A stretch of DNA of 64,000 nucleotides from the NCBI RefSeq assembly GCF_025384765.1, contig NZ_VHLL01000005.1:62001-126000 (forward strand), written 5' to 3'. Shown here piece by piece: positions 43,043 to 50,609 of this stretch. Below the pieces are notes generated by a model that was not told the DNA's origin, made no database searches, and was given only the letters and a program-made list of their open reading frames with translations. The translations under genes and the position numbers were made by a program. This stretch comes from Methanoculleus formosensis (lineage in GTDB: Archaea > Halobacteriota > Methanomicrobia > Methanomicrobiales > Methanoculleaceae). Each line of letters begins with the position of its first letter. Positions within the stretch are counted from its first letter, which is position 1.

Positions 43043-44335
43043 TCACTTCGGCTTATGATACCCCCACTTCTCCAGCGCCTCCCGGAGTGCCGTGGCCTTC
43101 TTCGCCTTCTCGTCGAGTGTCTCGCCGTTTTTCCAGGCCTCGATCGCCTGCATCACGGCCTCTGCGCCCGCCCGCGTGCCCTTCGGGTGGCCGTGGATGC
43201 CGCCGCTCACCAGGAGGACGAGTTCGGTGCCGTAGATATCGAGCACGTCCGGCACGAGGCCGGGGTGGAGCCCGCCTGAGGAGACCGGGAACGCGCTCTT
43301 GATACTGCCCCAGTCCTGGTCGAGGGCCATCTGGTCGACGGCGTTCGTGCGCTTCTCCCGGAGCACGTCCGCAAGCACCGTGGCTTCCGCCCGGGTACCG
43401 ACCAGCTTCCCCACAGCGGTTCCGGTATGGATCTGCGAGACACCGACAAGGCGCATCATCTTCGCCAGGAACTGCATCGTGACCCCGTGCTTCTCGTCCC
43501 GATCGAAGGCCGCGTGCATCGCCCGGTGGGCGTGGATGGCAAGCCCGAGATCGGAGCAGTAGTCCCGGAGAGTCGCGACGGCCGCCGTCCCGGTGACCAC
43601 GACATCGATCATCGCGTAGTTCCAGCCGTAGTCAGCGAGCATCTTTGCCCGCTGCTTCATGACCTCCGTCTCGGCCGTGATGTTGATGAACGCGGACTTC
43701 ACGTCGCCGGTCTCCTTCTCGGCCTTATCCCGCATCTTCGCCATCGCGCGGACGCGGTCCTCGAACCGGTTGAACGGCTGGGACGTCAGGTTCTCGTCGT
43801 CCTTGACGAAGTCGAATCCACCCATCCAGGTCTCGTAGCTGACCTCAGCGTGCTCCTCCGCGGTGAAACCCACCTTCGGCTTTGGGACCGCGCCCGTGAG
43901 CGGCCGGCCGCGGACATTCATCATATCCCGGATCCCCTCCATGCCGAAGTGCGGCCCCTTGAAGTGCCGGAGGTATTCGGCAGGGAGCGAGGCGTCGATC
44001 AGCCGGAGACGGTCGAGTGCCTTCATCCCGAAGATGTTCCCGGCGATCCCGCTCAGGAGCTGGGGTGCGTTCCCCTCCTCCCAGAGGGCGAGCGGGTATG
44101 CGATCTTCACGTAGTTCCCCTCGATCTCGAACGCCTTCGCCTGGAGGTCACGCATCCGGGGCGGCAGGGTGAAGAGCGTCGTCCAGGTTCCGGTCGAACT
44201 CTCCGACGCGATCCTCCCGACCGCCTCCTCCCTGCTGATCCCCTCCGCAGGCTCGAAGTAGTAGAGGGCTACGAGTTCGTCCGCACCGGGGGTGTGGTTC
44301 AGGTCAACAAACTCTTCGTACCAGTCAATTGCCAT
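43043..44335 (-). CDS. rbcL: ribulose-bisphosphate carboxylase, form III
   Basis: Archaeal RuBisCO of 430 residues, acting in nucleotide (AMP) salvage or a reductive hexulose-phosphate cycle in methanogens. Catalytic and binding motifs are GAVPKPKVGF (Lys152, Lys154), MGGFDFVKDDENL with the carbamylated Lys178 and metal ligands Asp180/Glu181, the AIHAHRAMHAAF segment, HTGTAVGKL (loop 6 Lys) and VSSGGLHPG. Small-subunit and other Calvin-type genes are absent here. ATG 44335 has GAGGTGA 5 nt upstream; the extra N-terminal residues in the open frame look non-coding. It diverges from the alpha/beta hydrolase gene over 140 nt. Confidence 0.96.
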   Translation of the reverse strand: MAIDWYEEFVDLNHTPGADELVALYYFEPAEGISREEAVGRIASESSTGTWTTLFTLPPRMRDLQAKAFEIEGNYVKIAYPLALWEEGNAPQLLSGIAGNIFGMKALDRLRLIDASLPAEYLRHFKGPHFGMEGIRDMMNVRGRPLTGAVPKPKVGFTAEEHAEVSYETWMGGFDFVKDDENLTSQPFNRFEDRVRAMAKMRDKAEKETGDVKSAFINITAETEVMKQRAKMLADYGWNYAMIDVVVTGTAAVATLRDYCSDLGLAIHAHRAMHAAFDRDEKHGVTMQFLAKMMRLVGVSQIHTGTAVGKLVGTRAEATVLADVLREKRTNAVDQMALDQDWGSIKSAFPVSSGGLHPGLVPDVLDIYGTELVLLVSGGIHGHPKGTRAGAEAVMQAIEAWKNGETLDEKAKKATALREALEKWGYHKPK

Positions 44336-44475
44336 CAAATCACCTCTTGAAGGAAGGAACTCGCGGGTAGAAAAACCTTCCATTCTGAACAGGGTATAGA
44401 ATGCCGGAATCACTTTCTCCCCGCAGGCGCCAGGTTTATCCGCCGGCGGGTCGAGAGGAGAGCAGAAGGAGTCTT

Positions 44476-46682: not shown

Positions 46683-47336
46683 TCAATGCTTCCCGGGGAG
46701 ATCCCTGATGTATTCGAGCGCGAGCAGCGCGTCCTCGCGTTTCTGGTCGACGGCATGCTCCCCGGCAAATGCCGCGAACCGGGCGAGTTCATCCGGGTCA
46801 GCCTTCCCTTCCGCCGACTCGACGACCGCATCGTAAGTCCGGTCGGGGAAGTAGAGCCCCCGGGCGGCCTCGAGGAGCGCCCCTGCCGCGTCGGCACCGA
46901 TCACCCCGGACGCGAGCGCCTCCTGCAGGGTCGCCCGGATGTTCACGAGCGGTTCGGAGAGCGGCACGAACGTCTCGGGGTCAAAGAGGAGCGCCACCTC
47001 GTCGTCGGCGACGAGCCTCCCCTCACGGTAGGCCAGGTAGATCTCCCCGACCCCTTCCATCCCGAGGCTGTCGAGTTCCGCGGCCCGGAGCGCTCCCATG
47101 CTCGAAGCACCGACGACCCGCACCCCGGCCCGGAGGGCGGCGAGGACCTCCCGGTGGGCTACGGCACAGTCCTGGAAGAAGACACCGTCGATGAGCCCGA
47201 TGATCCGGGCCCCGGCGCGTGCGGCCTCCAGGACGTCGCCCCGTTTTGCCGGCGGGCGGTAATTGGCGTCGAGGATTGCCCGGGCAGTCTCGCGGTCACA
47301 GCTGGGACCGAGGAAGACGACGACTTCGTGCGTCAC
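46683..47336 (-). CDS. tfuA: TfuA-like protein
   Basis: A 217-residue partner of YcaO. In methanogens this pair installs the thioglycine in the alpha subunit of methyl-coenzyme M reductase. It starts VTHEVVVFLGPSCDRETARA and has GLIDGVFFQDCAVAHREVLA, then VGASSMGALRAAEL and GVGEIYLAYREGRLVADDEV, matching the TfuA family. GTG 47336 lies 5 nt after GGAGG and overlaps the ycaO end by 41 nt, so coupled translation is expected. Confidence 0.92.
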   Translation of the reverse strand: MTHEVVVFLGPSCDRETARAILDANYRPPAKRGDVLEAARAGARIIGLIDGVFFQDCAVAHREVLAALRAGVRVVGASSMGALRAAELDSLGMEGVGEIYLAYREGRLVADDEVALLFDPETFVPLSEPLVNIRATLQEALASGVIGADAAGALLEAARGLYFPDRTYDAVVESAEGKADPDELARFAAFAGEHAVDQKREDALLALEYIRDLPGKH

Positions 47337-48510
47337 GGCACCTCCTGCCCATCCGGTCCTGGTCCATCGCGTACATCTCGAGCCCCGGCACGATAACCCG
47401 GACGACAGGGATACCGATCTCCGGCCGGGTGAGGTCGACCACGACCACCCGGGAGAGCCCGGCAGCACCAAGCCGGTCGACGACGTGCTGGATGTCGGTG
47501 AGGAAGTCGTCGCTGTCAAACGACGGCATCTCCGGGAACCGGACAGTCTCGCTCTCCGCGAACCAGTGCCGGTTCAGCCGCTTCGTCCGCTCGTAGCCGA
47601 TCCTCTTTCTGACGTCCGCCGTATCGGTATCCTCTCTCGCGCCGTGGATCTGGGTCAGCCTGCTCTGGGCGACCTCTGTCAACGCCCGCAGAACCGCGAT
47701 GGAGGCCGAGGTGTGCGACCCCATCCCGATCGTGAGAAGCGTCGGGTCCCTGAGGACGACGTCGTCGGCGACCGCGGCCACCGTGGGGATCCCGATATCG
47801 CTCGTGATCTCCTTGAGCGTCACCTCGACGCCGGCAGCCCCGAACTTCCCGAGCAGGTCGGCGGCGAGCCCGTCCTCGATCCCCTCGATCCGGGGGCCGG
47901 TGTTCCGGGTCACCTCCACGAGCGACCAGGCGTCGCGCTCGACCACCTCCATCAGGGCGTGGAAGGTCGCCTCCTCAATGGTGTTTCCAGACGCAAGCCC
48001 GTTGGTGTTGGTCCGAAAGAGGCGCCCGCAGGTCACCGGGAGAGGGTGGTAGACCGCGTGGGCGGGGACGAGCACCTCCTCCTCCCCGACGATATCGTAG
48101 CCCTCGACCCAGGGGACGGCTATATCGGCCGGAACCCGCTCGGGGAGGATCAGGTCAGCGGGGTCGATGGCGGCTCTCCCGGCCGAGACCTCGCTATACC
48201 GCCCGACGACCGTCTCCCGGCCGTCCATCTCGCCCGAGTAGCGCTCGATCCCCTCCATCACGGCGGAGACCTCCGCCTCGATAGGGGTGGCGCCTTTCCC
48301 GTTGTAGACCGATATCGCTCCCGCCCCGGCGGTCGGTCGGATGCTCGAGAAGACCGGGATCCCGATCCGGTCGAGGTTCGTGATATCGGCGACCCTGGTG
48401 ATCCCCGCCACCGGAAGCCGTGCCCGGGCACGGGCAAGCGTCTCCTCAGGCGGGACCGTCCGCTGGGTCTCCTTCGCGTAGGCCTTCCGGCACGACTGCA
48501 GCCGGATCAC
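47296..48510 (-). CDS. ycaO: YcaO-domain ATP-dependent cyclodehydratase
   Basis: A 404-residue ATP-dependent enzyme that activates a peptide amide. With TfuA it thioamidates an McrA glycine in methanogens; that assignment here rests on the pair and on the organism. ATP-binding motifs are GKGATPIEAEVSAVMEGIER, RTNTNGLASGNTIEEATFHA, LMEVVERDAWSL and RALTEVAQSRLTQIHGARED. The C-terminal 18 residues after YAMDQDRMG are Arg-rich and lie in the overlap with tfuA. GTG 48510 overlaps the moaE stop (GTGA). Confidence 0.93.
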   Translation of the reverse strand: MIRLQSCRKAYAKETQRTVPPEETLARARARLPVAGITRVADITNLDRIGIPVFSSIRPTAGAGAISVYNGKGATPIEAEVSAVMEGIERYSGEMDGRETVVGRYSEVSAGRAAIDPADLILPERVPADIAVPWVEGYDIVGEEEVLVPAHAVYHPLPVTCGRLFRTNTNGLASGNTIEEATFHALMEVVERDAWSLVEVTRNTGPRIEGIEDGLAADLLGKFGAAGVEVTLKEITSDIGIPTVAAVADDVVLRDPTLLTIGMGSHTSASIAVLRALTEVAQSRLTQIHGAREDTDTADVRKRIGYERTKRLNRHWFAESETVRFPEMPSFDSDDFLTDIQHVVDRLGAAGLSRVVVVDLTRPEIGIPVVRVIVPGLEMYAMDQDRMGRRCRDARSRRLPRSQL

Positions 48511-48923
48511 GCGTCGCCCCCGTGCGACTCGCCCGGCACCCAGCGCTCGCCCCCCTCTCCGATCTCCTTCTTCCAGATCGGCACGCTCTCCTTGATCCGT
48601 TCAAGGATGTGCTCGCAGGCGTCAAATGCCTCTTTCCGGTGGCCGGCACCGACGACGATGAGGAGGATGTTCTCCCCGACCCGGAGCCTGCCTATCCGGT
48701 GGATGATCTCAACGGCCATGATAGGGAACCGTTCAAACGCCTCATCCCGGATCGCCTCCATCTCCCTCACCGCGACCTCCTCATAGGCCTCGAGTTCCAT
48801 CACGTCGATTCCGCCGTCGTCCCGGACAACGCCGAGAAAGGTGACGAGAGCCCCCATATCGGGCCTTCTCACCCGGCCAATCACCTCGTTCACATCAAAA
48901 TCGTCTCGCGTTATGCTGATCAT
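48507..48923 (-). CDS. moaE: molybdopterin synthase catalytic subunit
   Basis: With thiocarboxylated MoaD it adds the dithiolene sulfurs to precursor Z, making molybdopterin or tungstopterin. Family features in 138 residues are ALVTFLGVVRDD, MELEAYEEVAVREMEAIRDE, IIHRIGRLRVGENILLIVV, GHRKEAFDACEHILERIKES and VPIWKKEI with the active-site Lys. ATG 48923 (MISITRDDFD) is preferred for its GGAGGAG site 6 nt upstream; ATG 48941 would overlap the moaD stop by 4 nt. Both starts keep it in the moaD-moaE-ycaO-tfuA operon. Confidence 0.93.
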   Translation of the reverse strand: MISITRDDFDVNEVIGRVRRPDMGALVTFLGVVRDDGGIDVMELEAYEEVAVREMEAIRDEAFERFPIMAVEIIHRIGRLRVGENILLIVVGAGHRKEAFDACEHILERIKESVPIWKKEIGEGGERWVPGESHGGDA

Positions 48924-48937
48924 TCCATTCTCCTCCG

Positions 48938-49216
48938 TCATCCCCCCGCCACCGGCGGGAAGAGCGCGACCTCGTCCCCGTCGGCGAGCGTGAGCGTCGT
49001 GGTCTCCGCATGCCGCACGCGCCTGCCGTTGTGCATCAGTATCACGTATCCCCGGAGTTCGCCGTTCTCCTCAAAGAGCGCCTCCTCTGCCTGCTCAGAG
49101 GTCTCCCCGACCGCTGCGAGCAGCATGCTCACCGTCGCTCCGGCGGGAACCTCCAGCATGAGATCGCCCCCGATCGCCTCCCGCAACCGGGCAAAAGCCC
49201 TGACCCGAACCTGCAT
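48938..49216 (-). CDS. moaD: MoaD/ThiS-family sulfur carrier protein
   Basis: A 92-residue ubiquitin-fold sulfur carrier. It starts MQVRVRAFARLREAIGG and ends in DGDEVALFPPVAGG, with the C-terminal Gly-Gly that is adenylated and thiocarboxylated. ATG 49216 has GGAGGAGAG directly upstream; the 11 extra residues of the open frame are unlikely. An E1-like activating enzyme is needed; the remains of one precede this gene at 49231-49379. Confidence 0.92.
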   Translation of the reverse strand: MQVRVRAFARLREAIGGDLMLEVPAGATVSMLLAAVGETSEQAEEALFEENGELRGYVILMHNGRRVRHAETTTLTLADGDEVALFPPVAGG

Positions 49217-49230
49217 CTCTCCTCCTTGCC

Positions 49231-49379
49231 TCACCGATCGATCCCGCACACGCTACAGCCTTCCTGCCGCTCGACCGGGAGGGTCGTCGTCGTGGCGGCC
49301 CGCCAGTGCCGGCGATATACTTGATCGCCTCGTTTGCCGGGATGAGCCGGGAGAGGCAAACGTCCGCTTCCGCAGTTGA
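49231..49379 (-). pseudogene. remnant of a ThiF/MoeB/HesA-type adenylyltransferase gene
   Basis: Just 14 nt upstream of moaD, one minus-strand frame ends TTTLPVERQEGCSVCGIDR and stop (49233-49231), the typical C-terminus of MoeB/HesA-like E1 enzymes with the last Cys pair. A second frame a few codons upstream reads SRLIPANEAIKYIAGTGG, the typical EAIKYI...G helix that comes 25-30 residues before that end. The two pieces are in different frames and the segment between them is about 15 residues too short. The rest of the gene is not found upstream to 49580. Confidence 0.65.
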
Positions 49380-49513
49380 ATACGCAATTGATGTGGTATC
49401 CCCGGCAATTTGAACGTTGTGATTCCACGAAAATTCCTCCCGGCCCGGGATCTCTCCCGCCGGTCACGTGGGGAAACCCGGTATCCACCGCGAGCCACTC
49501 CCATCCCGGGAAA

Positions 49514-49580: not shown

Positions 49581-50609
49581 ATGACGATAGGGCTTATCGA
49601 TGATGGAAGCGCCTGGGACACATTCATAGACGAAAGTGCCACCGGCCGCCTCTTCCACAAGTGGGACTTCATGAGGATAACGCAGAAGCATACCGGCTTT
49701 CGATTTCTCCCCTACGGGGTCTTCAAGGGCAACGAGCTGATCGCCGTCATGCCGCTCTTCCAGAGACAGTCACACGGGATCAACATCCTCCTCTCCCCGC
49801 CACCGCTCCAGTCGGTGGTGCCGTACCTCGGGTTCGTCATGGGCAGCCGTTACGACACCGCCAAGCAGAGCAAGAAGGAATCACTGCTCAAACTGGTCGG
49901 TGACAGCCTGGAGGGCGAGTTTGCGGCCCTGGCCCCGAACTACCTCTCCATAACCCAGGTCCCGGGTTTCATCGATGTCCGACGGTTTCTCAGGGATGGG
50001 TACCAGACCCGGCTCCATTTCACCTATCTGATCGCCCTCGATCCGCCGCTCGAAGAGATCTGGAACAGTTTCTCCTCCAACCTCCGGACCAAACTGCGAA
50101 AGGTCGAGAAGAACGGCTACCGCATCGAGAAGAGCACCGACATATCGATCTTCTACTCCACGGTCGCGGAGCGGTTCAGCGACCCCGAGATGAACATCCC
50201 CATGATCAGCCGCGCCTACTTCGAGGAGCTCTTCCGGGCATATCCCACCGAACTCGGGCTCTACTACCTCTACGACGATGAAGATGCCGTAACGGGCGTC
50301 CAGGCGACCCAGGAGTACAAGGCCTTCACCCTCTGGATGGGAGCCCCGAAGATGACCGCGATGCCCGGCAACGAGTTCCTGCAGTGGCTGCTTCTCCAAC
50401 GGGCAAAGGAGGCGGGATACCGCCACATGGAGAACGTCGGCGCGAACAACGAGAACCTGAACCTCTTCAAGTCCAAGTTCAACCCCTCCCTCACCCTCTT
50501 CTTAGAGGTGAGCCAGGAGGACATCCTCGGCAGGGTTGCCCGATGGGCCTACAGCACCATTGCGAGCAAGGGTCCGATGAAACGCAAAGTCCTCTCCTAC
50601 ATCGAATGA
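49581..50609 (+). CDS. FemAB/GNAT-fold acyltransferase-like protein
   Basis: A 342-residue protein with two tandem GNAT-like halves, as in FemAB and BioF2-type transferases. The first half has LFHKWDFMRITQKHTGFRFL and LPYGVFKGNELIAVMPLF, then SPPPLQSVVPYLGFV; the second has FSSNLRTKLRKVEKNGYRIE, TLWMGAPKMTAMPGNEFLQW and RHMENVGANNENLNLFKSKF. Members of the family act in cell-envelope or polysaccharide modification; the substrate here is unknown. ATG 49581 follows AGGGAG. It stands alone between divergent neighbours. Confidence 0.83.
   Translation: MTIGLIDDGSAWDTFIDESATGRLFHKWDFMRITQKHTGFRFLPYGVFKGNELIAVMPLFQRQSHGINILLSPPPLQSVVPYLGFVMGSRYDTAKQSKKESLLKLVGDSLEGEFAALAPNYLSITQVPGFIDVRRFLRDGYQTRLHFTYLIALDPPLEEIWNSFSSNLRTKLRKVEKNGYRIEKSTDISIFYSTVAERFSDPEMNIPMISRAYFEELFRAYPTELGLYYLYDDEDAVTGVQATQEYKAFTLWMGAPKMTAMPGNEFLQWLLLQRAKEAGYRHMENVGANNENLNLFKSKFNPSLTLFLEVSQEDILGRVARWAYSTIASKGPMKRKVLSYIE

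Follow-up and report, generated by a model that had tools for sequence, protein, structure and literature searches.

The locus lies on the minus strand of a 64,000-nucleotide stretch of the Methanoculleus formosensis genome (the window; contig NZ_VHLL01000005.1, positions 62,001 to 126,000), where the remains of thiF1, a gene for an E1-type enzyme, stand directly before the gene for a ubiquitin-like sulfur carrier. E1 enzymes activate the C-terminus of such carriers. The features are as follows.

46683 to 47327, minus strand: tfuA (NF033432, 282.5 bits against a cut-off of 235.2); family match from about 47327, start codon approximate, frame end at 46683
47296 to 48510, minus strand: ycaO-A, a YcaO of the McrA-glycine thioamidation type (TIGR03266, 505 bits against a cut-off of 365)
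48507 to 48941, minus strand: moaE1, of the molybdopterin synthase catalytic subunit type (PF02391, E = 5.4e-36)
48938 to 49213, minus strand: moaD1, a ubiquitin-like sulfur carrier of the MoaD/SAMP1 type with the tail FPPVAGG (PF02597, E = 1.8e-14)
49231 to 49305, minus strand: thiF1 remnant piece 2, the C-terminal end (TTLPVERQEGCSVCGIDR) and stop codon, in another frame than piece 1
49306 to 49350, minus strand: thiF1 remnant piece 1 (the LIPANEAIKYIAGTG region), aligned to positions 1052-1096 of the relative's locus L003
49351 to 49430, minus strand: retained operon leader, from an alignment of 10 upstream regions
49581 to 50609, plus strand: divergent neighbour, Acetyltransf_6/FemAB-like (PF13480)

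In relatives with an intact operon, the genes are arranged in the order thiF1-moaD1-moaE1-ycaO-tfuA. MoaD1 joins a beta-grasp family match to a C-terminal Gly-Gly and scores above the cut-offs of NF041918 (SAMP1) and TIGR01687; MoaE1 scores under the NCBIfam MoaE equivalog cut-offs. The tfuA gene overlaps the end of ycaO-A, and both products pass the equivalog models for McrA-glycine thioamidation. YcaO-A of the window is related to MJ1094 (6pe3), and its TfuA is homologous to a solved structure, 6xp8 (E = 7e-55). In Methanosarcina acetivorans, the thioglycine of McrA was shown by gene deletion to depend on both YcaO and TfuA (PMC5589413); McrA is the likely target of the pair in the window. 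The ycaO-tfuA continuation of the operon was absent from the initial annotation, and since the operon runs into these two genes, thioamidation, besides molybdopterin, is a likely destination of the sulfur. Also on the minus strand of the window, at 43043-44413, is a gene for a RuBisCO large-chain-type protein (PF00016, PF02788).

The nearest relative is represented by L003 (genome G004); L063, from Methanoculleus chikugoensis, is identical to it in ThiF1 and match percentages, and the two apparently stem from one genome. The intact thiF1 of L003 sits between a divergent acetyltransferase-like gene and moaD, so that the corresponding neighbour in the window marks the synteny; such a neighbour lies divergently 5′ of type-1 thiF at 13 of the 18 listed loci of this kind in the genus. 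The segments EAIKYIAGTG and LPVERQEGCSVCG share one frame in L003 and are 57 nt apart, whereas on the minus strand of the window they occupy 49331-49302 and 49281-49243, with a gap of 20 nt and a change of frame between them, in agreement with the initial annotation, which had called them out of frame and too close together. A global alignment to L003 accounts for this arrangement by two deletions: one of about 599 bp (L003 453-1051) that includes the start codon (L003 477), and one of 37 bp (L003 1097-1133), not a multiple of three, because of which the two segments stand in different frames. In alignments to two further relatives the deletion ends agree within a few bases; in one of them, a short stretch within the large gap aligns by chance. 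Piece 1 corresponds to about residues 192-206 of the relative's intact ThiF1 (13 of 15 residues identical in tblastn), and piece 2 aligns from L003 1134 toward the thiF1 stop codon. The start codon and about 190 codons are deleted, and roughly 120 bp of coding sequence is left, at about 49350-49231. The remnant had first been drawn at 49231-49379; its gene-derived part is borne out, and positions 49351-49379 align instead with the relative's non-coding leader 5′ of thiF1.

Both scraps came up in tblastn with the relative's ThiF1 as the query, over 15 and 22 residues (E = 3e-10), and in blastn at 91% and 90% identity. Synteny and homology thus show the remnant to derive from a MoeB/ThiF-type E1 gene directly before moaD, as was originally proposed; synteny and alignment also rule out a chance similarity of two short motifs. 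The C-terminal tail agrees with the relative's ThiF1 at 15 of 18 residues and with ThiF2, the E1 encoded elsewhere in the same genome, at 6 of 18; judged by this tail, the remnant is of type thiF1 and not thiF2. Because the start codon, the nucleotide-binding part and an internal stretch are deleted, the remnant is unable to make an enzyme, a complete Rossmann/ATP-binding domain in an open frame being absent.

A base-call frameshift is ruled out, as the damage consists of two deletions. It is highly improbable that thiF1 is intact in the organism and was damaged only in sequencing or assembly: the evidence comes from one assembly of the species, but both deletions have clean flanks, 85-90% identical to the relative, and the 14 substitutions from L003 among 117 aligned positions are distributed 3:6:5 over the ancestral codon positions, without concentration at the third, unlike base-call error. 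Still less credible is a remnant expressed as a small functional protein. An open frame of 85 codons (49488-49231) is present; however, most of it corresponds to non-coding leader in the relatives, and the in-frame match to thiF1 is confined to the 22 codons at its end. A block of this leader at about 49381-49421 is conserved 5′ of thiF1 in the relatives (10 regions aligned), has a few window-specific changes, and presumably serves as the promoter; the 599-bp deletion starts downstream of it.

The four genes beyond the remnant are open and look to be under purifying selection. In pairwise comparisons, which mix both lineages, dN/dS of moaD1 is 0.124 against L063 (17 synonymous and 7 non-synonymous differences) and 0.15 and 0.27 against two further relatives; the values against L063 are 0.138 for moaE1, 0.169 for ycaO-A, and 0.217 for tfuA. 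The range of 0.12-0.22 against the nearest relative gives no support to the idea of a decaying operon. The two deletions have broken thiF1, and the leader and the four downstream genes have been kept.

The initial annotation had suggested counting the ThiF-family genes that are left. A search of the whole M. formosensis genome (G000, rated 99.17% complete) gave a single match to PF00899, a model that may miss the second E1-like family of archaea (PMC2948915), for which a link to ubiquitin-like carriers is considered unlikely in that paper. The match is the following gene, located on another contig in a thiF2-moaD2-moaE2 cluster.

G000:C1:417618-418301: ThiF2 (PF00899, 255 bits over all 238 positions)

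The translation carries GAGGLGC, which we take to be the glycine-rich loop, and CLEC and CPAC, presumably the CxxC...CxxC motifs, so that a full E1 domain with its characteristic elements is present; since ThiF2 stays under cut-off in the MoeB, ThiF, and UbaA models of NCBIfam, it is assigned at the family level, with no subtype. PF02597 matches two carriers, MoaD1 and MoaD2, against the one PF00899 match. The C-terminal tail of a carrier is the part gripped by E1, and the tails of MoaD1 and MoaD2 are nearly identical (ADGDEVALFPPVAGG and ADGDEVAIFPPVAGG, respectively). PF02391 has three matches in the genome, namely moaE1, moaE2, and a MobB-MoaE fusion (L120 1480-2235, minus strand), the MoaE part of which stops before the C-terminal WKKE-like stretch of MoaE1; a similar distant MoaE match occurs in 32 of 35 genomes of the genus.

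These 35 Methanoculleus genomes, M. formosensis included, allow the loss to be placed among relatives. The ycaO-A gene is found in 24 of them and tfuA adjoins it in the same 24 (a family-level count over 40 genomes, five more than the genus sample, gave TfuA in 29). ThiF is kept 5′ in the operon in 20 of the 24, as type 1 in 18 (the frameshifted copy of G027 included) and as type 2 in two (G002 and G003), and the local E1 has been lost from the operon in four, G000, G015, G017, and G034. The leftovers differ: two C-terminal pieces of thiF1 in G000, N-terminal, middle, and C-terminal pieces in G015, and the first 16 and last 41 residues of ThiF1 in G034, while the operon of G017 yielded no thiF1 scrap with tblastn support. 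All four genomes carry a thiF2 cluster elsewhere. An extra ThiF is present in 4 of 4 genomes that lost the local E1 versus 2 of 20 that kept it (G002 and G018; Fisher p = 0.0014), and in 3 of 3 versus 2 of 17 when the four genomes less than 90% complete are dropped (p = 0.009), tests that count genomes as independent and contain only four losses.

In a tree of ycaO-A and ycaO-B, the four fall into separate clades, with support values of 100 for G000 with G004 and G003 (99 for G004 with G003), 100 for G017 with G018, 99 for G034 with G028, and 100 for G015 with G002; these were taken from an unrooted tree with several weak deep nodes, built from two genes and no species marker set, in which ycaO-A is missing for 11 genomes and ycaO-B for G027. 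The pairs G017/G018 and G034/G028 receive 69 and 73 from ycaO-A alone and 100 and 100 from ycaO-B alone. Because the breakpoints differ and each of the four has a sister with ThiF at the operon, the losses are considered separate, and a single ancestral loss behind the four operons was rejected. G018, the sister of G017, holds both E1 genes (thiF1 and cluster 2) and thus shows the intermediate state. In G003 (L025) and G002 (L035), the set immediately preceding ycaO-A is a thiF-moaD-moaE of type 2 instead of type 1; therefore, type 2 can replace type 1. G002 also contains an orphan type-1 set with no ycaO adjoining it.

Several loci deserve separate mention. The thiF1 of G027 is frameshifted, and no other ThiF was found in this 83%-complete genome, which may mean that the operon has no E1, that a base was miscalled, or that a gene is missing. 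In G015, thiF2 has a run of N within it and is only presumptively intact; the notion that both E1 genes are broken in this genome was not upheld. In G025, ycaO-A (L092, G025:C6:122636-123847) contains one in-frame TAG, attributable to a base-call error, a pseudogene, or readthrough. In G016 (L134 3408-4273), a genome without ycaO-A and tfuA, the moaD2 after thiF2 gives a match confined to its first part, and no moaE2 match was found at this thiF2.

A second YcaO, YcaO-B, of about 45% identity, is encoded in 34 of the 35 genomes (G000:C2:576360-577508 in M. formosensis) and was not found in the 83%-complete G027. The 24 genomes have one tfuA match apiece, located at ycaO-A, which leaves the second YcaO without an adjoining TfuA. 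The one copy tested, that of G019, also exceeds the TIGR03266 cut-off.

Across the order, the presence of TfuA follows that of an E1. Among 129 Methanomicrobiales genomes, evenly drawn from a larger group and each at least 90% complete, TfuA was found in 110 (109 above the family cut-off), all 110 of which have at least one ThiF. By contrast, TfuA occurs in none of the six ThiF-less genomes (G007, G012, G055, G072, G080, and G086; p = 5e-6, a value that overstates the number of independent cases because the genomes are related). ThiF without TfuA is seen in 13 genomes, and ThiF therefore has other uses. In several other lineages, such as G088, G091, G094, G122, and G125, ThiF stands immediately beside TfuA. 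This purely genomic pattern lends support to the published proposal that the sulfur used by TfuA has to come from a charged carrier protein. It also bears on the suggestion that MoaD1 works without any E1, for instance by direct sulfur uptake in a sulfide-rich habitat, so that the loss of E1 was neutral. Such a route would have precedents in the methanogens M. jannaschii and M. kandleri, which are described as having neither ubiquitin-like carriers nor a MoeB/ThiF-type E1 (PMC2948915) and as having thioglycine without TfuA (PMC5589413), and the operon of G027 may likewise be without a working E1. Nevertheless, no TfuA-containing genome of the order sample is without ThiF, and the four clear losses occurred only where a spare E1 is present, which makes an E1-free MoaD1 quite unlikely.

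The reading preferred here, to which we assign a probability of roughly 0.7, is that the local E1 became redundant and was lost, and that ThiF2 charges MoaD1 in trans, the sulfur passing to MoaE1 and/or TfuA. That another ThiF-type enzyme now activates MoaD1 was already supposed in the initial annotation, and we infer the same, with good comparative support. The loss of the local E1 would be tolerated because a second E1 makes thiF1 redundant. ThiF2 would most likely adenylate both MoaD1 and MoaD2 at the C-terminal Gly-Gly; the charged MoaD1 would be converted to a thiocarboxylate, which could give its sulfur to MoaE1 for molybdopterin and/or to TfuA; and TfuA would hydrolyse the thiocarboxylated MoaD1 and pass sulfide to YcaO for peptide thioamidation. 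The roles in this relay are taken from published work on homologues, from which the choice of partners in Methanoculleus, including a putative partnership of carrier and TfuA, is extrapolated.

The operon's own MoaD may not be the carrier in use, and it is conceivable, at rather low probability, that MoaD1 is idle, uncharged, and on its way out, with the ThiF2-MoaD2 pair supplying both TfuA and MoaE1. In G010 and G030, the operon keeps thiF1 and yet gave no moaD match in the PF02597 search, so that another carrier must suffice there; the MoaD encoded in the operon is thus not the working carrier in every case. These operons (L023 and L022, respectively) retain thiF1, moaE1, and ycaO, and thiF and moaE nearly abut in L023. 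The idle-carrier account would also fit the operon MoaD of G034 (L016 1212-1487), which, in an alignment by eye, is type-2-like in its N-terminal half and type-1-like in its C-terminal half and looks like a recombinant of the two types. On the other hand, all four E1-less operons hold an open, conserved moaD, and moaD1 of the window combines its low dN/dS against the nearest relative with an intact tail.

It is tempting to speculate further that a second E1 cluster was gained, that its E1 became a shared hub for both relays, and that the operon E1 was then repeatedly lost, while YcaO-A with its TfuA forms a carrier-fed, low-sulfide route on top of a near-universal YcaO-B that has no adjoining TfuA and uses free sulfide; this extended scenario is possible but tentative. 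The four Methanoculleus lineages that keep a TfuA-YcaO operon without its own E1 constitute a natural gene-loss experiment, and the prediction drawn from them is that two different carriers are charged by a single E1. By comparing sister lineages that have kept or lost the local E1, the sulfur supply for the modification of methyl-coenzyme M reductase could be tested.

The sharing of E1 among carriers is already reported in archaea (PMC11323500). A search of the literature by title and the beginning of the abstract, which is not proof of absence, found no paper on the loss of E1 in such operons among those listed. The present case adds the repeated loss of a dedicated E1 from a thioamidation operon, placed on a tree, together with the order-wide pattern in which TfuA goes with E1. 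It would represent a small but clear instance of one enzyme becoming shared between two sulfur relays.

The closest known loci are the ycaO-tfuA loci of methanogens described by Nayak et al. (2017; PMC5589413), where thiF, moaD, moaE, and moeB are noted near ycaO-tfuA in several instances. The neighbourhood is of the same kind, ycaO and tfuA overlap, and the products here exceed the TIGR03266 and NF033432 cut-offs; taxa with two ycaO genes and one tfuA, as in M. formosensis, also appear in a figure legend of that paper. In contrast to those loci, the operon E1 is a remnant here, and E1 loss is not a topic in the available portion of that paper. The predicted relay resembles that of Liu et al. 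(2021; cited via PMC8153245, PMC13063428, PMC13185837, and PMC8939145), in which an archaeal TfuA is said to hydrolyse thiocarboxylated ThiS and supply YcaO with sulfide, and TfuA of the window is a homologue of 6xp8; however, the candidate carrier here is of the MoaD/SAMP1 type and lies in an operon with moaE, in place of a ThiS-type carrier. Finally, Thermococcus kodakarensis is described as having a single E1/MoeB/ThiF homologue, TK2117, the presumed activator of its three ubiquitin-like carriers, one of which is encoded in the TK2117 operon, and several reports are said to have shown one E1-type enzyme activating several carriers (PMC11323500). As in M. formosensis, one E1 is presumed to serve several carriers. 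In T. kodakarensis, however, the single E1 is the state as found, whereas in Methanoculleus a dedicated E1 was present and then lost, and the step is visible in the relatives.
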